From assembly GCF_029360665.1 (NCBI RefSeq), contig NZ_JARDUB010000006.1, positions 186,001-250,000 of the forward strand: 64,000 bases of DNA. Direction: 5' to 3'. The position numbers and the translations under genes were made by a program. Origin of the DNA: Eudoraea chungangensis. GTDB lineage: Bacteria > Bacteroidota > Bacteroidia > Flavobacteriales > Flavobacteriaceae. The notes beneath the pieces are model-generated. The model worked only from the letters and a program-made list of their open reading frames with translations. It ran no database searches and had not been told where the DNA came from. The stretch's first letter is position 1. Every line of letters starts with the position of its first letter. This document shows positions 23,489 to 64,000 of the stretch, in pieces.

Positions 23489-23832
23489 ATAATGGTTGGT
23501 TTAGTTTTGCCTACTCTATGAAGTTTTCGGCTACCCTTTTTGCCCTCTTAAGTTATATTAGTATTTAGCAACATATAGTTCTTGGTTTCCAGATATAATA
23601 TTTTCGCCTTATTTATATATGAGAAAACAAAGCACTCTGACTAAATTAATGTGCCAAAACCATATAGATTTTTCAGGAAGTTCAATATAAGAATTCTTAA
23701 GTGATTAATCAATCCCAAAGCGATATGGTTACATCGATAACATAATTAGAGGAGGTAGTTAAAACAAAATGGCCTTTACACTTTTCCATGTAAAGGCCAA
23801 AACAATATTATTGATAAAAGTCTATAAAGCTT
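23489..23832. other. Intergenic region, terminator at the right end only
   Basis: No gene is visible in these 344 bp. A perfect 12-bp palindrome (TAAGAATTCTTA, 23688-23699) and the terminator at 23771-23798 are the only structures seen. The left part should hold the HdeD promoter. Confidence 0.4.
23771..23798 (-). terminator. Terminator of the 23833-24288 gene
   Basis: A 10-bp perfect stem, GGCCTTTACA (23771-23780) and TGTAAAGGCC (23789-23798), with an 8-nt loop. In the minus direction it is followed by ATTTTGTTTT. Confidence 0.85.
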
Positions 23833-55161: not shown

Positions 55162-57198
55162 ATGCAATTACAAACCGTACTGCTTATTATTTTAGCGGCA
55201 ATATTCGCCTTTGCCGTTGTCTATTTCCAATATTTCTATAAGGCAATACAAAATAAAAAGCTTCAATATACCCTTGGTTTATTAAGGTTTGTAGTCCTGT
55301 TCTTATTACTCTTTCTCTTAATCAATCCAAAGATTACAAAAAATACTTTTGTAACAGAAAAACCTAATTTAGTTGTCCTTGTTGATAATTCTTCTTCGAT
55401 AAAAACAGCTAATGCCACGGAGGAAGTTGAAAGTATTTTGGCATTTATAGATCAAAATGATTTACTTGATGAGAGGTTTAATACAGTTATGTATTCTTTT
55501 GGGAATAGTCTATATTCCTTAGACAGTCTTGGTTTTACGGAGAATTACACAAATATTGGTAAGGCCCTGTCCTCTGCCAATAATATTTACAAAGATACCA
55601 ACTCAGCATATTTACTATTAACGGATGGCAATCAAAATCTTGGAGAAGATTATGAGTTTTATGCACAAAGGCAAGCCAAGTCCATTTTTCCCATAGTAAT
55701 AGGAGACACTACTAAATTTGATGATTTAAGCATTGATCAAATTAATTCTAATAAGTATGCCTTCTTAAAAAATCAGTTCCCTTTAGAAATTCTAATTTCC
55801 TATAATGGAGATAGTGATGTCTCTTCAGAACTAAGTATCAGAGAAAATGGAAAGTTGATGTTTAGAGAGTCTATTGTTTTAAATAGCAATAAAAGGGCCT
55901 TAACTAAAGAAATCTTAATGGAGGCCTCTGAGGTTGGTATAAGAAATCTTAAGATATCACTAAGGCCCCTGGTGAATGAAAAAAATCTGGCCAATAATGA
56001 AAGAGAAATAGCTATTGAAGTTATTGATGAGAAAACAAATATTGCCTTAGTTACCAACATGATGCATCCCGATCTTGGGGTTCTTAAAAAATCTATTGAA
56101 ACTAACGAACAAAGACAAGTATCTATTCTAAAACCTAATATAGAGGCAACATCCTTAGATGCCTTTGATTTATTTATACTCTACCAACCAGACAGGAGCT
56201 TACAAAATATTTATGATTTTATACAAAATAAGGATCTTAGCTATTTTACTATTGTTGGTACTAAGACCGATTGGAACTTTCTAAACGAGGTTCAGAATAG
56301 TTTTCAAATGAATAGTTTTGAACAGAATGAGGATGTTTATCCGCTTTTTAATGAAGGATTTACCAAATTCGATATTAAAGAATTTGAAATAAATAATCTT
56401 CCTCCTTTAAAAACTGTTTTGGGAGAACTATTAATCACTACGGCGCATGAAAATATATTGGAACAGAAGATTAAGGGTGTGCCCTTAGAAGACCCACTGT
56501 TTTCCATTCTGGAATCGGCCAATAGTAGGGAGGCCGTCCTATTTGGTGAGGATATTTGGAAATGGCGTATGGAAATATACAGGCAAGAAAAGTCCTTTGA
56601 AAGATTTGACGACCTATGGGCTAAGACTATTTTTTACCTGGCAGATAGTGATCCTAAGAGTAGGTTAACTCTAGACTATCAAAATATATTCTACGGAAGC
56701 AATAATGCCTTTATAAAGGCGCGATATTTTGATGAAGTATATAATTTTGAGCCAGCTGCGACCCTTTCGTTAAAACTTATAGGAGATACACCGAATAACG
56801 AAAGAAGAGAACTAACCCTTCTTTTAAAAAACGGCTACTATGAAGTAGATTTAAGCAGTTTATTACCAGGAAATTATAGTTTTGAAGTGTCGGTGGAAAA
56901 CCAGGATATTTCTGAGAAAGGGACTTTTACCATCCTTGAATACGATCTCGAAAACCTCTCTCTTTCTAGTAATTATAGCAAATTAGATAGAGCAGCTAAG
57001 AACAGTCAGGGAGCTTTGTTTTACCCGGATCAGCTCTCAGAAATGGTAGCCACCCTCTCACAGGATAATCGTTATGTTCCCCTACAGAAAAGCAATCAAA
57101 ATGTCGTATCTTTGATCGACTTTAAAGTCCTTCTTGCCACAATCGTTATAGCCATGGCCGCGGAATGGTTTTTAAGAAAGTATTTCGGATTAATCTAA
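55162..57198 (+). CDS. Membrane protein with von Willebrand A-like domain
   Basis: A 678-aa membrane protein. Two N-terminal helices (about 5-27 and 36-58) are followed by a vWA-like domain with the MIDAS-like DNSSSI and YLLLTDGNQNLG. A large extracytoplasmic part follows, and a last helix near 655-672 returns to the membrane. A cytosolic tail of only a few residues remains. This layout is common in flavobacterial uncharacterised proteins next to fabG and a prohibitin gene. vWA domains bind proteins through a metal ion, so it may be an assembly scaffold, but the role is unknown. Confidence 0.78.
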   Translation: MQLQTVLLIILAAIFAFAVVYFQYFYKAIQNKKLQYTLGLLRFVVLFLLLFLLINPKITKNTFVTEKPNLVVLVDNSSSIKTANATEEVESILAFIDQNDLLDERFNTVMYSFGNSLYSLDSLGFTENYTNIGKALSSANNIYKDTNSAYLLLTDGNQNLGEDYEFYAQRQAKSIFPIVIGDTTKFDDLSIDQINSNKYAFLKNQFPLEILISYNGDSDVSSELSIRENGKLMFRESIVLNSNKRALTKEILMEASEVGIRNLKISLRPLVNEKNLANNEREIAIEVIDEKTNIALVTNMMHPDLGVLKKSIETNEQRQVSILKPNIEATSLDAFDLFILYQPDRSLQNIYDFIQNKDLSYFTIVGTKTDWNFLNEVQNSFQMNSFEQNEDVYPLFNEGFTKFDIKEFEINNLPPLKTVLGELLITTAHENILEQKIKGVPLEDPLFSILESANSREAVLFGEDIWKWRMEIYRQEKSFERFDDLWAKTIFYLADSDPKSRLTLDYQNIFYGSNNAFIKARYFDEVYNFEPAATLSLKLIGDTPNNERRELTLLLKNGYYEVDLSSLLPGNYSFEVSVENQDISEKGTFTILEYDLENLSLSSNYSKLDRAAKNSQGALFYPDQLSEMVATLSQDNRYVPLQKSNQNVVSLIDFKVLLATIVIAMAAEWFLRKYFGLI

Positions 57199-57208
57199 AA
57201 AAAAATAT

Positions 57209-58024
57209 ATGGATAAGTTACCCAAAATTGCATTGCCTGTAGTATTTATTATTGTTTTAGTAATTATTCTAATTTCAAAATCGGCGGTTACCATCGGTTC
57301 CGGTGAGGCCGGAGTTTTATATAAAACATTTGGTGGAGGAGTGGTAACGGATGAGGCGCCACTCGGAGAAGGTTTTCATATTGTGGCCCCTTGGAATAAG
57401 GTATTTATTTATGAGGTAAGGCAACAAGAAGTGTTCGAAAAGATGAAAGTGCTATCAAGTAATGGACTAGACATTCAGCTAGATGCCTCTGCCTGGTTTC
57501 AGCCTTTTTATGAAGATCTAGGAAAATTGCACCAAGAAAAAAGTGAAATGTACAAGGAGAGAATTCTACTTCCTGCCATTCGTTCAGCAGCTAGGAGTGT
57601 TGTTGGTAGATATACCCCTGAACAACTTTATTCCAGTAAACGAGATGCAATACAGGTAGAAATATTTGAAGAAACTAAAAACATTGTTCAAGATCAGTAT
57701 ATTCAATTAAACGAAATTCTTATTCGTGATGTAACCTTGCCACCAACCATCAAAGAGGCAATAGAACGAAAATTAAAACAGGAACAGGAATCTTTAGAAT
57801 ACGAATTTAGACTCGTCACGGCTTCTAAAGAAGCAGAAAAAGTTAGAATAGAAGCACAGGGTAAGGCCGATGCCAACCGTATTTTGAGTGCTTCTTTAAC
57901 CGATAAAATTCTTAAAGACAAAGGGATTGATGCGACCTTAAAAATGGCGGAATCTCCAAATGCAAAAGTAGTAGTCATTGGTTCCGGTGGGGATGGACTT
58001 CCTTTAATCTTAGGAAATAATTAA
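57209..58024 (+). CDS. Prohibitin / SPFH family membrane protein
   Basis: The 271-aa protein begins with one membrane helix (about 7-26), followed by the SPFH domain: SGEAGVLYKTFGGGV, EGFHIVAPWNKVFIYEVR and the WFQPFYEDL turn. The C-terminal coiled coil has RKLKQEQESLEYEFRLVTASKE and EAEKVRIEAQGKADANRIL. Prohibitins form large rings in membranes and modulate proteases such as FtsH. It is likely in one operon with the vWA-like gene 10 bp upstream. The his leader region follows. Confidence 0.92.
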   Translation: MDKLPKIALPVVFIIVLVIILISKSAVTIGSGEAGVLYKTFGGGVVTDEAPLGEGFHIVAPWNKVFIYEVRQQEVFEKMKVLSSNGLDIQLDASAWFQPFYEDLGKLHQEKSEMYKERILLPAIRSAARSVVGRYTPEQLYSSKRDAIQVEIFEETKNIVQDQYIQLNEILIRDVTLPPTIKEAIERKLKQEQESLEYEFRLVTASKEAEKVRIEAQGKADANRILSASLTDKILKDKGIDATLKMAESPNAKVVVIGSGGDGLPLILGNN

Positions 58025-58035
58025 TGAAAATTCAT

Positions 58036-58065
58036 TTTGTGGAATAAAAATAAATTCTAATTTTA
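58036..58065 (+). promoter_or_regulatory. Promoter of the histidine operon
   Basis: TTTG at 58036-58039, an 18-bp spacer and TAATTTTA at 58058-58065 fit the Bacteroidota promoter with one mismatch in the last base. The expected start is only a few bases before the leader peptide ATG at 58072. Confidence 0.5.
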
Positions 58066-58071
58066 CATCAA

Positions 58072-58125
58072 ATGAAAAACAAGTCGATACATCATCATTT
58101 ATACACTGGCACTCAGGCGAGGTAG
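58072..58125 (+). CDS. hisL: his operon leader peptide (17 aa)
   Basis: A 17-codon ORF reads MKNKSIHHHLYTGTQAR and ends with TAG. Three consecutive His codons (CAT at 58090-58098) make it a sensor of histidyl-tRNA charging. The following codons LYTGTQAR overlap the antiterminator arm at 58112-58123, so the coding sequence also serves RNA structure. It lies 98 bp before hisG and just upstream of a terminator. Confidence 0.85.
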   Translation: MKNKSIHHHLYTGTQAR

Positions 58126-58189
58126 AAATGTATTGTTGTATTCCAAAATATATCGGACCCGTTTGAGAAATCAAGCGGGTTTTGCTTTT
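58112..58189 (+). promoter_or_regulatory. Histidine operon attenuator (antiterminator and terminator)
   Basis: Two exclusive structures can be drawn. The terminator pairs ACCCGTTTGA (58157-58166) with TCAAGCGGGT (58171-58180), loop GAAA, followed by TTTGCTTTT. The antiterminator pairs CTCAGGCGAGGT (58112-58123) with ACCCGTTTGAG (58157-58167), leaving only one bulged A and using two G-T pairs. A ribosome stalled on the His codons leaves 58112-58123 free and allows readthrough; a ribosome finishing at the TAG covers it and lets the terminator form. This is classical translation-coupled attenuation. Confidence 0.85.
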
Positions 58190-58222
58190 AAAGACATCGA
58201 TATATAATAAATTAAAATTACT

Positions 58223-59080
58223 ATGAATAATTTAAGAATTGCGATCCAAAAGTCGGGTCGACTAAACGAAGATTCTATAAAGATTCTAAAAGAGTGCGGT
58301 ATTTCTATCGACAACGGAAAGGATCAATTAAAAGCCTCCGCAAAAAACTTTCCGATGGAAGTTTTCTACCTGCGAAATGGAGATATTCCACAATACCTCT
58401 TGGATGGGGTAGTAGATATTGCAATTATCGGGGAAAATGTGTTATTAGAAAAGGGCAGCAATATTACAATAACAGAAAAGCTTGGATTTTCCGGATGCAG
58501 AGTTTCTTTGGCAGTACCTAAGTCTTTTAAATATAATAATATTAGCGATTTAGAGGGAAAGCGAATTGCGACTTCATATCCCAACACGCTAAAGCAGTAC
58601 TTACAAAAAAAGGGCATAAATGCCGATCTTCATATTATTAATGGCTCGGTAGAAATAGCGCCAAATATTGGACTTGCAGACGCCATTTGTGACATAGTTT
58701 CAAGTGGCAGTACACTTTTTAAAAATAATCTTAAAGAGGTAGAAGTGATGCACAATAGTGAGGCTGTTCTGGCCGTTTCGCCAAAACTTAACAAAGAGGC
58801 CAACGAGATTCTGGAAGAATTAAAATTTCGAATTCAAGCTGTACTTAGAGGACGTAAGGCGAAGTACGTATTGATGAATGTACCAGATAATAGCTTAGAA
58901 AATGTTATTAAAATTTTGCCAGGAATGCGCAGTCCAACAGTACTCCCTTTAGCCGAAAAAGGATGGAGCTCGGTACATACAGTAATTAAAAAGGACAAAT
59001 TCTGGGAAGTGATTAAAGAGCTAAAAGTAGCTGGAGCAGAAGGAATTCTTGTTTGTCCGATTGAAAAAATGGTATTATGA
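58223..59080 (+). CDS. hisG: ATP phosphoribosyltransferase HisG (long form)
   Basis: HisG joins ATP and PRPP, the first step of histidine synthesis. The 285-aa length shows the long form with its C-terminal PII-like regulatory domain (KILPGMRSPTVLPLAEKGWSSV), so no HisZ partner is needed and feedback by histidine is expected. The N-terminal part has LRIAIQKSGRLNEDS and VDIAIIGENVLLE; the PRPP site is the DAICDIVSSGSTLFKN stretch. It starts the operon after the attenuator, and its last codon overlaps hisD by 4 bp. Confidence 0.97.
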   Translation: MNNLRIAIQKSGRLNEDSIKILKECGISIDNGKDQLKASAKNFPMEVFYLRNGDIPQYLLDGVVDIAIIGENVLLEKGSNITITEKLGFSGCRVSLAVPKSFKYNNISDLEGKRIATSYPNTLKQYLQKKGINADLHIINGSVEIAPNIGLADAICDIVSSGSTLFKNNLKEVEVMHNSEAVLAVSPKLNKEANEILEELKFRIQAVLRGRKAKYVLMNVPDNSLENVIKILPGMRSPTVLPLAEKGWSSVHTVIKKDKFWEVIKELKVAGAEGILVCPIEKMVL

Positions 59081-60378
59081 ACACATATATAAACCCTCTA
59101 AAAAGTAATTGGGACAAACTTTTGAAAAGACCAACAGCTTCCCTGGCCGCTATAGAGAATACCGTCTTATCAGTTTTTGAAGAAATTAAAAAGGGTGGGG
59201 ATGAAGCTGTAAAGGAATATACTAAGAAGTTCGACAAGGTAAATCTACCAGATAGCAGGGTACAAAAGTCGGCATTGGATAAGTCTGCAGATAGTGTTCC
59301 ACTGGAATTAAAAGAAGCGATACAGATAGCCAAAAGCAATATTGAAAAGTTTCACAAAGCGCAGATTAGTAATCGAGTAGAAGTAGAGACTACTTCGGGA
59401 GTTTTATGCTGGCAGGAAAAAAGACCAATTCAAAAAGTTGGCTTATATATTCCCGGGGGAACGGCGCCTCTTTTTTCTACTATATTAATGTTGGCAGTAC
59501 CTGCAAGTATTGCGGCTTGTCCGGAGATTATCTTATGTACACCTCCAAATAATAAAGGAGAGATAGATCCGGTAATTCTTTATACAGCCAATTTGTGTGG
59601 GATACAGAAAGTTTATAAGGTTGGCGGTATTCAGGCTATTGCGGCATTAACTTTTGGAACAGAGACTATTCCAAGGGTTTATAAACTATTTGGACCGGGT
59701 AATCAGTATGTTACCGTTGCGAAACAACTGGCTACCAAATTCGGTGTAGCCATTGATATGCCGGCAGGCCCAAGTGAACTATTAGTATTTTCGGATGAGA
59801 CCGGGATTCCATCCTTTATTGCATCCGATCTATTAAGCCAGGCAGAGCACGGAACGGATAGTCAGGTTATATTGGTAAGTACTTCTCAAAAACTAATTAA
59901 AGAAGTAAGTGAAGAGATTGAATTACAGCTAACAAATCTGCCCAGAAAGAATATTGCTGAAAAAGCTATGCAAAACGGTAAATTAATCTTTGTAGAAGAT
60001 AACCATACAGCAATAGAACTTATAAACGAATATGGTCCTGAACATTTTATAGTATGTTCAAAAGAAGAAGAATATTTTATAGACAATATCCAAAATGCGG
60101 GCTCCGTATTTATTGGTAATTTCACGCCAGAAAGTGCAGGCGACTATGCTTCAGGAACAAATCATACACTGCCAACTAATGGTTATGCCAAACAGTACAG
60201 TGGAGTTAATCTAGATAGTTTTATGAAGAGTATGACTTTTCAAAAGATTAGTTCTCATGGTTTAAAAAACCTAGGAACTTCCATAGAACTTATGGCCAAA
60301 GCGGAGGGCTTGCACGCTCATAAAAATGCCGTAACATTAAGGCTCAAGGAAATAGAGAAGGGATTTAATGATAAGTAA
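59077..60378 (+). CDS. hisD: Histidinol dehydrogenase
   Basis: HisD oxidises histidinol to histidine in two NAD-dependent steps with zinc. The 433-aa protein has GLYIPGGTAPLFSTILMLA, KLFGPGNQYVTVAKQLA, DMPAGPSELLVFSDE and SQAEHGTDSQVIL with the zinc-linked Gln-Glu-His, plus YGPEHFIV and the C-terminal GLHAHKNAVTLR. The start overlaps the hisG stop by ATGA, so translation is coupled. The next gene, hisC, follows after 18 bp. Confidence 0.97.
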   Translation: MNTYINPLKSNWDKLLKRPTASLAAIENTVLSVFEEIKKGGDEAVKEYTKKFDKVNLPDSRVQKSALDKSADSVPLELKEAIQIAKSNIEKFHKAQISNRVEVETTSGVLCWQEKRPIQKVGLYIPGGTAPLFSTILMLAVPASIAACPEIILCTPPNNKGEIDPVILYTANLCGIQKVYKVGGIQAIAALTFGTETIPRVYKLFGPGNQYVTVAKQLATKFGVAIDMPAGPSELLVFSDETGIPSFIASDLLSQAEHGTDSQVILVSTSQKLIKEVSEEIELQLTNLPRKNIAEKAMQNGKLIFVEDNHTAIELINEYGPEHFIVCSKEEEYFIDNIQNAGSVFIGNFTPESAGDYASGTNHTLPTNGYAKQYSGVNLDSFMKSMTFQKISSHGLKNLGTSIELMAKAEGLHAHKNAVTLRLKEIEKGFNDK

Positions 60379-60396: not shown

Positions 60397-61437
60397 ATGG
60401 GGTTTAGTTTAAATAAATTGGTAAGGGAAAGTATAAAAGACCTAGTGCCGTATTCATCTGCCAGAGATGAATTCACGTCTAATGGGGAATTTATGATATT
60501 TTTAGATGCTAATGAGAGTCCATACCCCAATGGTGTTAATAGATATCCTGATCCTCAGCAAAGAACTCTAAAAGGTGAACTAAGTAAGAAATATAGCGTC
60601 CCAGAGACGTCCATTTTATTAGGAAATGGCAGTGATGAAGTTTTAGATTTAATCTATCGTGCTTTTTGTGAACCCCAGATGGATAATATTATTACCATGC
60701 CACCAACGTATGGGATGTATAAGGTTTTGGCAGGAATCAATGCAATAGAAAATAGGGAAGTTTACCTCACCGATGAATTTCAATTAGATGTGGAGGGTAT
60801 CATGAAACAGGTAAATGATAATACGAAGTTAATACTGCTGTGTTCCCCTAATAATCCAACTGCCAATAGTTTTAGTTATGATAGCATAATCTGTTTATTA
60901 GAAGGGTTTAAAGGCTTGGTAGTAGTAGATGAGGCGTATATAGATTTTGCTAAGCAAGAAAGCCTGATAAATCGATTGGAAAAATACCCGAATTTAATTG
61001 TTACCAGAACTTTTTCTAAAGCCATTGGACTGGCCGGTTTACGGTTGGGAGTTTGCATCGCTTCTGAGGAAGTCATTCAAATATTAAACCGAATTAAACC
61101 ACCATACAATATTAATGAACTGACGCAGGCAAGAGCTTTACAGGAAATACTAAACGAGGAAATTACTTTAGCCAGAATTGCAGAGATAAATATTGAAAAG
61201 GACAGAATGGTAAAGGAGCTTAAGGAAATTGGCTTTATAGAACACATTTATCCTTCGGAAGCAAACTTTATTTTAGTAAAAGTAGATGATGCCAATCTAC
61301 GGTATAAACAGCTAATAGGTAAAGGGATTGTTATTCGCAATAGATCTTCACAACCTCTTTGTGAAAACTGTCTGCGATTTAGCATAGGTCTTTTTAATGA
61401 AAATAATACCCTTATTAGGGCTTTACAAGAATTATGA
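60397..61437 (+). CDS. hisC: Histidinol-phosphate aminotransferase
   Basis: HisC transfers an amino group to imidazole-acetol phosphate with PLP. The 346-aa protein has [10 protein letters not shown] near the start, [49 protein letters not shown] and the Schiff-base Lys in [15 protein letters not shown]. The end [18 protein letters not shown] is usual. It overlaps hisB by 4 bp (ATGA). Confidence 0.97.
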
Positions 61438-62591
61438 AACAACAAAAAAAAATAAACAAAACCAAAGTACTCTTTATAGATCGGGATGGTACTTTAATAC
61501 TGGAACCGGAGGATGAACAAATAGACAGCTTCGACAAAGTAAGTTTTTATCCTCGTGTATTTAGTCAATTGCTTAAAATAGTTGAAGAACTCAATTTTGA
61601 AATTGTAATGATTACAAACCAAGACGGGTTAGGCACAGCCTCTTTTCCAGAAAATACCTTTTGGCCAGTTCATGATTTTGTAATTGAATGTTTCAAGAAT
61701 GAAGGCATAATCTTCTCAGAGGTGTTTATAGATAAGACTTTTGCCCATGAAAACGCAGATACGCGTAAACCAGGAACCGGATTATTGAAAAAGTACTTCA
61801 CTGAGGATTACGACTTGGAAAATTCGTTTGTTATCGGGGATCGATTAACCGATATTGAGCTGGCAATTAACTTAGGAGCCAAGGGTATTTATATTAATAA
61901 TACAGAAGATCTAGGAGGGGAGGAAGTAGTAACCCCAAATGATGTTTTACAGAATGCCATTGCATTAGAAACCAACAGTTGGATTTCTATCTATGAATTT
62001 CTAAAATTAAACGATAGACAGGCAACAATTTCCAGAATAACAAAAGAAACGGCAATCGAAATTGAGATTGATTTAGATGGTACAGGTAAAGCAGAGATTT
62101 CTACAGGTATCGCATTTTTTGATCATATGTTAGAACAGATTTCAAAGCATGGACTAATTGATTTAAAAGTAAACGTTGAGGGAGACCTAGAAGTAGATGA
62201 ACATCACACTATAGAAGACACAGCTATTGCCTTAGGAGAGGCATTTCATACAGCCATAGGGGATAAACTAGGAGTGGAAAGATATGGCTTTTGTCTACCT
62301 ATGGATGATTGTCTGGCCCAAGTAGCACTAGACTTTGGAGGACGTAATTGGCTGGTTTGGCAGGCTGAATTTAAGAGAGAAATGATAGGACAAATGCCTA
62401 CAGAAATGTTTTTTCATTTCTTTAAGTCGTTTTCAGATGGCGCCAAAGCCAATCTAAATATTAAAGCCGAGGGTACCAATGAACATCATAAAATAGAGGC
62501 TATTTTTAAAGCTTTTGCCAAGGCAATCAAAATGGCAGTAAAAAGAGATCCTAATAAAATGTTTCTTCCTTCTACAAAAGGAGTGTTATAA
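61434..62591 (+). CDS. hisB: Bifunctional histidinol-phosphatase / imidazoleglycerol-phosphate dehydratase
   Basis: HisB here is a fusion. The N-terminal HAD phosphatase (about 1-165) has [14 protein letters not shown] with both catalytic Asp and RKPGTGLL. The C-terminal dehydratase (about 195-385) has [29 protein letters not shown] and [19 protein letters not shown], with the metal-binding His clusters. So this gene performs the eighth and sixth steps of the pathway. The 385-aa length is slightly above that of enterobacterial HisB, owing to linker length. The following hisH starts 37 bp later. Confidence 0.96.
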
Positions 62592-62628: not shown

Positions 62629-63234
62629 ATGACAACAGTAATAATAGACTATGGAGCAGGGAATATTCAAAGCATTAAGTTTGCTTTTGAAAGACTAGGA
62701 ATTACACCTAAGTTGACTAAAGATTGGGAAGAAATATCTTCCTCAGATAGGGTTATTTTTCCTGGTGTTGGCGAGGCAAGCAGTGCTATGCGGAAATTGA
62801 AGGCCAGTAAATTAGATACTTTAGTACCAACACTTAAACAGCCTGTGCTGGGGATATGCCTTGGTATGCAGTTGATGTGTAACTCTTCCGAAGAAGGCAG
62901 CACCAAAGGATTGGGCATATTTGATACTGAGGTAGTTCGTTTTACCAACAAAGTTAAAGTACCACAGATTGGATGGAATCAAATCACAGATCTAAAATCT
63001 GGTTTGTTTCATAATATTAATGAACTAGACTATATTTATTTAGTACATAGCTATTACGCCCCAATTAGCGACTATACTATCGCGACTTCAAGTTATGAAT
63101 TACCTTATAGTAGCGCTCTACGTAAGAATAATTTTTTTGGAGTGCAGTTTCATCCAGAAAAAAGTAGTACCACTGGGGAACAAATTTTAAAAAATTTTAT
63201 AGAGATGAATCCTTATGATGCATATTCGAATTAG
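62629..63234 (+). CDS. hisH: Imidazole glycerol phosphate synthase glutaminase subunit
   Basis: HisH is the glutaminase that supplies ammonia to HisF. The 201-aa protein has IDYGAGNIQSIKFAFERLG, VIFPGVGEASSAM, Cys77 in GICLGMQLMC as the nucleophile, and FHPEKSSTTGEQILKNF with the His and Glu of the triad. Its 3' end overlaps the start of the following GNAT gene by 20 bp in another frame. Confidence 0.96.
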   Translation: MTTVIIDYGAGNIQSIKFAFERLGITPKLTKDWEEISSSDRVIFPGVGEASSAMRKLKASKLDTLVPTLKQPVLGICLGMQLMCNSSEEGSTKGLGIFDTEVVRFTNKVKVPQIGWNQITDLKSGLFHNINELDYIYLVHSYYAPISDYTIATSSYELPYSSALRKNNFFGVQFHPEKSSTTGEQILKNFIEMNPYDAYSN

Positions 63235-63628
63235 TAGAAATAAGGATGAAATGGATTTAGATCTAATCCATCAATTTCTCTCTGAAAAAGCTTATTGGGC
63301 CATAGGACGTACAAAAGCCGACGTTATAAAATCTATGGAAAACTCTATTTGTTTTGGAGTTTTTAGAGAATTCGAACAAATTGCGTTTGCGAGAATTGTC
63401 ACGGATAGGGTTGTGTTTGGTTGGGTAATGGATTTTTTTGTTGTTGAATCGGAACAGAAAAAAGGTGTTGGGGAATACCTCCTGAGTAGCATCCTGAAAA
63501 TTCCAGAATTGGAAAATGTAAACGGTTTAGGATTGCGTACAAAAGATGCCCACAACTTTTATGCGAAATATGGATTTGAAAAAATTTTGCATCCCGATAC
63601 TTGGATGCTTAAAAGAAATTTAAAATGA
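63215..63628 (+). CDS. GNAT family N-acetyltransferase inside the his operon
   Basis: A 137-aa GNAT-fold protein. The acetyl-CoA-binding region is [21 protein letters not shown] (motif A, QxxGxG-like: QKKGVG), followed by [19 protein letters not shown], and the end is [10 protein letters not shown]. The N-terminal part, [20 protein letters not shown], is typical of small GNAT proteins with this length. It starts 20 bp before the hisH stop and its TGA overlaps the hisA ATG (ATGA), so it is built into the operon. Its substrate is unknown; an amino-acid-like or pathway-related substrate is inference. A second ATG lies one codon downstream. Confidence 0.88.
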
Positions 63629-64000
63629 GACTAATACCTGCAATTGATATTATTGAAGGGAAGTGTGTTCGACTCTCACAAGGCGATTACACTACCAAAA
63701 AGATATACAATGAAAGTCCCTTAGAAGTAGCCAAGGCATTTCAAAACCATGGAATTAAGCAGCTGCACTTAGTAGATTTAGATGGTGCAAAAGCAAGTCA
63801 TATTGTTAATTATAAAGTATTAGAAGAAATTGCTACTAAAACAGATCTTCTGATTGATTTTGGCGGTGGATTAAAATCGGATGAGGATTTGAAGATAGCC
63901 TTTAATTCCGGAGCGAGGCAGATTACCGGGGGTAGTATTGCAGTGAAAGACCCGGAAACATTTAACAATTGGCTTATCACCTATGGGGGAGACAAGATAA
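63625..64000 (+). CDS. hisA: HisA, phosphoribosylformimino-5-aminoimidazole carboxamide ribotide isomerase (partial)
   Basis: The ATG at 63625 overlaps the GNAT stop. The frame reads [20 protein letters not shown], then [28 protein letters not shown] and [17 protein letters not shown] with [11 protein letters not shown], the (beta/alpha)8 pattern of HisA with the first catalytic Asp in PAIDI. The gene runs off the window end after about 125 codons. HisF and HisIE would be expected next. Confidence 0.95.

Follow-up and report, generated by a model that had tools for sequence, protein, structure and literature searches.

Gene content of the his locus

The window (the whole 64,000-nucleotide stretch of Eudoraea chungangensis DNA analyzed here) contains a his operon on the plus strand. 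Its first gene, hisG (58223-59080), matches Pfam families HisG (4.2e-50) and HisG_C (3.9e-30) and is followed by hisD (59077-60378; Pfam Histidinol_dh), hisC (60397-61437; Pfam Aminotran_1_2), a fused hisNB gene (61434-62591; Pfam IGPD with a HAD-type N-part), and hisH (62629-63234; Pfam GATase); the names of hisC and hisH are based on family and context. A gene predicted to encode a GNAT acetyltransferase (63215-63628, plus strand; Pfam PF13508, 4.2e-08) overlaps the end of hisH and the start of hisA, and the 5' part of hisA (63625-63999), an open frame named by sequence reading and position, runs off the window. A previous reading of this DNA from its letters alone (hereafter, the sequence-only reading) had given the gene order as hisGDCBHA; hisG-D-C, hisH, and hisA are present in that order, but the actual arrangement is hisG-D-C-NB-H, the GNAT gene, and then hisA.

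A Band-7/SPFH gene (57209-58024) lies on the same strand directly upstream of the leader region described below, and positions 55162-57198 encode a 678-aa protein with no Pfam match at an E-value of 0.001. The sole gathering-level Rfam match in the window is a DUF805b RNA (RF02914) at 23508-23540 on the minus strand.

Leader ORF and competing hairpins upstream of hisG

As the sequence-only reading had described, a 17-codon leader ORF with an ATG start (58072-58125, plus strand) precedes hisG. It encodes MKNKSIHHHLYTGTQAR ahead of its stop codon, and its sensing run consists of three His codons (58090-58098). The window holds 689 short ATG ORFs (10-30 codons) on its two strands, and HHH is found in none of them but this leader, which argues against a chance occurrence. 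At the level of the genome, the pattern CATCATCAYN{8,22}GCGAG has a single match, at the hisG leader.

Two alternative structures share one arm (58157-58167) in the region between the leader and hisG. As the 5' arm of a terminator, positions 58157-58166 pair with TCAAGCGGGT (58171-58180) in a hairpin of 10 bp and -14.6 kcal/mol, followed by the T tract TTTTGCTTTT (58180-58189), which is broken by GC. As the 3' arm of an antiterminator, 58157-58167 pairs with CTCAGGCGAGGT (58112-58123), and the computed pairing has 11 bp, one bulged A, and an energy of -13.0 kcal/mol. This antiterminator 5' arm corresponds to codons 14-17 of the leader plus the first base of the stop codon. The terminator with its T tract, the competing antiterminator, and the encoding of an antiterminator arm by the tail codons of the leader had all been proposed from the sequence, and our computations agree on each.

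The segment 58060-58190 folds at -32.6 kcal/mol, compared with a mean of -21.3 kcal/mol for shuffled sequences (z = -3.28; 0 of 200 shuffles as good). The window's minimum free energy (MFE) fold also includes a possible protector hairpin of the untranslated leader RNA (58086-58142). No Rfam family, including the T-box riboswitch and His_leader (RF00514), matched the hisG leader at gathering score; when E-values up to 10 were allowed across 58000-58230, eight sub-threshold matches were obtained, His_leader not among them, and the top-scoring one was RF04312 trpB with 22 bits against a cut-off of 59.

Conservation among close relatives

From an HisG scan, we kept the best 80 of 481 related loci, which represent Maribacter, Arenibacter, Cellulophaga, Zobellia, Eudoraea, other Flavobacteriaceae, and MAGs; with the window, these make up 81 loci. 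All 81 have a leader with His codons before hisG, and this leader starts with ATG in 80 loci and with GTG in L077. The run HHH occurs in 79 of them, the others having YHH (L056) and HQHH (L073). Allowing for exceptions, the leaders follow a rough consensus of M[KR]N..[TAVI]HHH(H)xxxxxQA[RS]; the tail kept in this 81-locus comparison is roughly QA[RS], and the conserved TGTQ tail anticipated by the sequence-only reading was not borne out.

The distance from the end of the His run to the core of the antiterminator arm is 17 nt in 80 of the 81 loci and 11 nt in L030. The script returned this spacing for 77 loci, and three more (L008, L067, and L081), in which it took an earlier isolated His codon as the run, were counted by eye. 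In five loci (L010, L011, L012, L046, and L074), a change of CAG to TAG removes QAR from the peptide and GGCGAGG is kept in the RNA; based on these loci, selection on the leader tail appears to act on the RNA arm.

At 9 of its 11 positions, the antiterminator retains its pairing in 80-81 of the 81 loci, and at the other two it does so in 57 and 62 loci. The shared arm has two partners to pair with and hardly varies, with 2 distinct sequences compared with 19 for the antiterminator 5' arm, and the changes within the antiterminator are one-sided (e.g., A-U to G-U). In the terminator, a single pair has changed on both sides, from A-U to G-C, and this is seen in 2 of the 81 loci. The His codons, the leader ORF, and both stems are conserved in relatives, and it was on this conservation that the sequence-only reading had staked the attenuator. 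The covariation that it proposed as a further check is not seen in the antiterminator of this close clade, where changes are one-sided only, but deeper families have arms that differ and yet stay complementary, as described below.

Predicted effect of ribosome position

As the choice of antitermination is settled before the terminator 3' arm has been transcribed, we folded RNAs cut before that arm, with the edge of the ribosome assumed to lie 15 nt past the first base of the A-site codon. In these truncated folds, the antiterminator had a probability above 0.5 in every one of the 81 loci when the ribosome was placed on either the first or the last His codon, and in none of the 81 when it was placed on the stop codon. 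In the MFE structure, 8 or more of 9 shared-arm bases were paired upstream in 80 of the 81 loci, compared with 510 of 4050 shuffles. This criterion replaced a looser shuffle control in which any upstream pairing was counted and which was too generous (947 of 1620 above 0.5).

An equilibrium fold with the whole terminator was also tried as a switch test and was rejected; it did not tell the ribosome states apart, and the antiterminator exceeded a probability of 0.5 in 0 of 81 loci at the first His codon and in 3 of 81 at the third. As the terminator wins at equilibrium, the predicted switch must be kinetic.

When truncated RNAs were folded without a ribosome, the antiterminator probability was above 0.5 in 59 of the 81 loci and not above 0.5 in 22, including the window (0.17). 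Since the antiterminator is favored in the untranslated RNA of so many loci, folding does not generally support the protector hairpin of the enteric model, though the window's own MFE fold contains one, and this counts against a complete match to that model.

His leaders in deeper relatives

We found hisG in 35 of the 59 genomes sampled from the order and in 88 of the 99 sampled from the phylum, two samples that overlap. The order contributed 28 upstream regions from its 35 hisG genomes (the window's own genome, G016, which is in pieces, and five small genomes of family f15 were left out), and 42 of the 67 hisG genomes outside the class were sampled. A first set of 60 deeper loci comprised 28 from Flavobacteriales, 10 others from the class, and 22 from outside it. 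Under a loose rule for leaders (a short ORF with at least three His, two of them adjacent or one apart), 49 of these 60 loci have a leader, compared with 5 of 60 on the reverse strand; the 49 consist of 27 of the 28 Flavobacteriales loci, 10 of the 10 other class loci, and 12 of the 22 loci outside the class, with the doubtful leaders of L126 and L140 counted.

The script identified a terminator in 39 of the 49 leader loci. The ten in which it found none are L099, where the finder missed a mismatched hairpin, L126, all four loci of family f34 in this set, and L110, L116, L117, and L118, four of the ten loci that belong to the class but not to the order. In 24 of the 39 loci, pairing between the leader tail and the terminator arm surpasses that of 95% of 200 shuffled sequences, where about 2 would be expected if the loci were independent; these loci are related, and therefore their counts are not. 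The other 15 fell short of the 5% line, and some arms that are complementary by eye (L113, L130, and L136) did not pass because the finder leaves out loop bases. The arms are family-specific yet complementary, as illustrated by GCGGTAGGCT with AGGCTTACCG in L083, TCCACGGTGAG with CTCGCTGTGG in L102, and GCAGGTAG with CTACCTG in L115.

With twenty further loci added, family f27 has a leader and a terminator in 10 of 10 loci; eight of the twenty, which belong to neither f27 nor f34, yielded no convincing leader and no terminator. Based on the presence of a His-rich leader in 37 of the 38 class loci sampled, 28 of which come from one order, classical his leader-peptide attenuation is probably general in this class of Bacteroidota.

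Family f34 (L127, L132, L134, L137, and L148-L155) has a His-rich leader before hisG in 12 of 12 loci, and the script found no terminator before hisG in any of the 12. The leader starts with GTG in 10 loci and with ATG in L153 and, by eye, in L154; the automatic leader starts were wrong or missing in L132, L149, and L154. In nine loci, the script found a TAnnTTT box whose TTT precedes the leader start by 5-6 nt. The spacer before hisG contains 2-10% G, and a 4-5 bp hairpin (e.g., GUGC/GCAC or ACGC/GCGU) spans the leader stop codon in 11 of the 12 loci; in L153, its place is taken by a hairpin after the stop codon that lacks a T run. These sequences suggest that the His leaders of f34 possibly use another output mechanism.

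Trp and Phe leaders in the same genome

Upstream of a trpE-type gene in the same genome (L142), a Trp leader (MKKTIVNTWWWNLLRQTS) contains WWW and is accompanied by a terminator and a competing arm; the pairing has no shuffle control, and the competing arm was computed for this genome only. The sequence before it (TATATTTG) has a perfect TAnnTTTG box, the TTT of which ends 6 nt before the ATG. Among 14 relatives, this spacing is 6 nt in nine, 5 nt in one more, and 18-34 nt in three, and one has no box. Loci L168-L176 have a Trp leader with WWW, a TAnnTTTG box 6 nt before the ATG (counted from the end of TTT), and a terminator.

A Phe-rich leader (MTRNYFWNSFYFYFFFKEVRGLF) lies before a pheA-type gene (L143), with a terminator and a competing GGGGACT arm (again with no shuffle control) and a box 32 nt away. 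We found nothing clear in the way of leaders before the ilvD- and thrA-type genes of this genome.

Promoter-like elements and predicted start of the leader transcript

The promoter-like element noted by the sequence-only reading was found, in the form of a -7-like box (TAATTTTA, 58058-58065) and, 18 bases upstream of it, a -33-like TTTG (58036-58039), for which the evidence is weak; the box resembles the Flavobacterium johnsoniae consensus TAHHTTTG and ends in A, not the usual G. In 56 of 76 evaluable loci, TTG lies 15-24 nt upstream of the box, a count for which no chance rate was computed.

In F. johnsoniae, 4 or 5 nt separate TAHHTTTG from the transcription start, according to the promoter passages of PMC6847099, and the corresponding passages on F. 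psychrophilum place the box at -12 to -5 (PMC9723704). Based on this published spacing, transcription would start at about 58070-58071, which gives a predicted 5' UTR of 1-2 nt in the window and of 1-4 nt in the 76 evaluable loci (2 nt and 2-4 nt, respectively, under a 4-nt rule). Of the five loci not scored, four (L028, L031, L047, and L071) have too short a stretch upstream, and L067 has no box near the start. The message of the his leader would then be in a leaderless-like state, and the earlier suggestion that the leader ATG lies a few bases from the transcription start is consistent, by analogy with the two Flavobacterium species, with the position of the box.

Transcription might instead begin further upstream, with the leader ORF preceded by an ordinary or short 5' UTR, and attenuation itself would be unaffected. 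Several observations fit such a start. The box ends in A in 62 of the 76 evaluable loci and in G in only 14, and this G is described as nearly invariant in F. johnsoniae (PMC6847099, in part). In 61 of the 81 loci, the window not among them, TAnnTTT is matched a second time 14-17 nt ahead of the leader ORF, and a transcript set by this match would have a 5' UTR of about 9-12 nt. In 25 of the 81, there is an in-frame ATG further upstream. In addition, mRNAs of this family are mostly leadered in the figures given by two reports: leaderless-type messages account for 5.5% of 890 mapped CDSs in F. psychrophilum (PMC9723704), and leaders of 10 nt or less account for 13% in F. johnsoniae, compared with 87% above that length (PMC6847099). 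Against these points, the nearer TAnnTTT box has its end 7-9 nt from the leader start in 80 of the 81 loci, whereas only 3 of the 210 remaining ATG triplets of these regions have a box so placed, and the Trp leader of the same genome is placed alike, with a perfect TAnnTTTG box. We regard an upstream start as a serious possibility that is, on balance, somewhat the less probable one.

Among the 27 other Flavobacteriales loci with a leader, 19 have a TAnnTTTG box that stops 18-36 nt short of the leader start, two (L084 and L094) have one that stops 8-9 nt short of it, and 6 have none.

Proposed mechanism and alternative explanations

This region very probably works by ribosome-mediated transcription attenuation, through which expression of the his operon would depend on how much charged His-tRNA is available. 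Sequence and computation establish the leader, its spacing, the competing stems, their conservation, and the predicted switching with ribosome position; the start site, the translation of the leader, and the response to histidine are steps that we infer. RNA polymerase would start at about 58070, and a ribosome would begin translation at the leader ATG, very near the transcript's 5' end. When histidine is ample, the ribosome would reach the stop codon (58123-58125) and cover the arm at 58112-58123, allowing 58157-58166 to pair with 58171-58180, and transcription would end before hisG. When histidine is short, the ribosome would stall on the His codons at 58090-58098 and leave that arm free to capture 58157-58167 before the terminator 3' arm is made, and hisGDC-NB-H, the GNAT gene, and hisA would be transcribed. 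The sequence-only reading had likewise proposed that stalling at His codons permits his expression, and the His run, the spacing, the competing stems, the arms that change together across families, and the in silico ribosome switch all speak for it.

The hairpins could also work without translation, with an RNA or protein ligand sensing histidine and the His-rich ORF being incidental. Such a switch would account for the five loci that retain the RNA arm despite having lost the peptide tail, and for the 59 of 81 loci in which untranslated RNA also forms the antiterminator. It would not account for the recurrence of a His-rich leader in all 81 close loci and, amid differing surrounding sequence, in 27 of the 28 Flavobacteriales loci and all 10 of the remaining class loci, nor for a 17-nt spacing to the arm that fits a ribosome, and no Rfam family matches the leader at gathering score; we consider this explanation very improbable. 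Less credible still is a functional leader peptide combined with a hairpin that simply terminates the transcript of the upstream Band-7 gene: His-rich peptides can bind metals, and the Band-7 gene does end at 58024 on the same strand, but five loci have a shortened peptide with the RNA arm kept, the arm matches the terminator in 24 of 39 deeper loci, and Trp and Phe leaders precede trpE- and pheA-type genes in the same genome.

Relation to known attenuators

The attenuator proposed here resembles hisL of Salmonella and Escherichia coli in having a short leader ORF with a His run, a terminator, and a competing antiterminator before hisG. The enteric his leader has seven His in a row, whereas most of the loci described here have three or four His codons. 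They also differ from enteric hisL in having no Rfam match, no generally predicted protector hairpin, a predicted 5' UTR of 1-4 nt, and a promoter box of the Bacteroidota type. The Bacteroid-trp RNA (RF01692), which going by its name is presumably tied to trp genes, differs in amino acid, the leader here being one for His and not Trp, and has no match in the window. Like the region described here, it is reported as a cis-regulatory candidate in Bacteroidetes (PMC2864571, in part).

Within the same family, passages of a report on F. psychrophilum present strong clues for leader-peptide attenuation before amino-acid operons and describe a conserved element before hisG without an Rfam match (PMC9723704). 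Because that report precedes ours, the novelty implied by the sequence-only reading is weakened. The 5' elements of F. psychrophilum and the loci analyzed here thus have in common both the family and a proposal of leader-peptide attenuation for amino-acid operons, whereas the leader peptide of hisG, its spacing, and the competing stems are not given in the main-text passages of that report concerned with these elements (PMC9723704).

In Sinorhizobium meliloti, the transcript of the trpL attenuator is likewise described as beginning at the leader ATG (PMC7298713, in the passages on leaderless trpL); that system responds to Trp in an alphaproteobacterium, and its 5' end is stated there, whereas ours is predicted. 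Candidate his attenuators in Firmicutes share three to five His codons in a row and a terminator and antiterminator before the his operon, but they belong to a different phylum, and the term "bacteroid" is absent from the text that describes them (PMC9413887). A 2010 publication states, in the part concerned, that leader-peptide systems had not been shown outside Proteobacteria and Actinobacteria (PMC2965389), and in sections of a survey of his genes in this superphylum, attenuation is mentioned once, for enterobacteria (PMC8305728). We found no detailed account of a Bacteroidota hisG leader in the open-access literature searched; Lopatovskaya 2010 and Vitreschak 2004 may contain Bacteroidetes cases.

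The mechanism proposed for this locus is therefore of a known kind, and a leaderless-like start would be its less ordinary, testable variant. Messenger RNAs of these bacteria are reported to lack Shine-Dalgarno sequences (PMC6847099, in part). We tentatively propose, at slightly less than even confidence, that the amino-acid attenuators of this clade, his and trp alike, are carried on effectively leaderless messages whose 5'-terminal AUG is loaded directly by the ribosome, and that the output step is of another type in f34, a different lineage of the phylum, in which most His leaders open with a GTG on or beside the predicted first base and no intrinsic terminator was detected before hisG. Because a ribosome must follow RNA polymerase closely for attenuation to operate, a functioning attenuator at hisG would offer a handle on transcription-translation coupling in this phylum. 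If the leader does begin at the 5' end of its transcript, ribosome loading on a leaderless mRNA would also become measurable by a readthrough assay.
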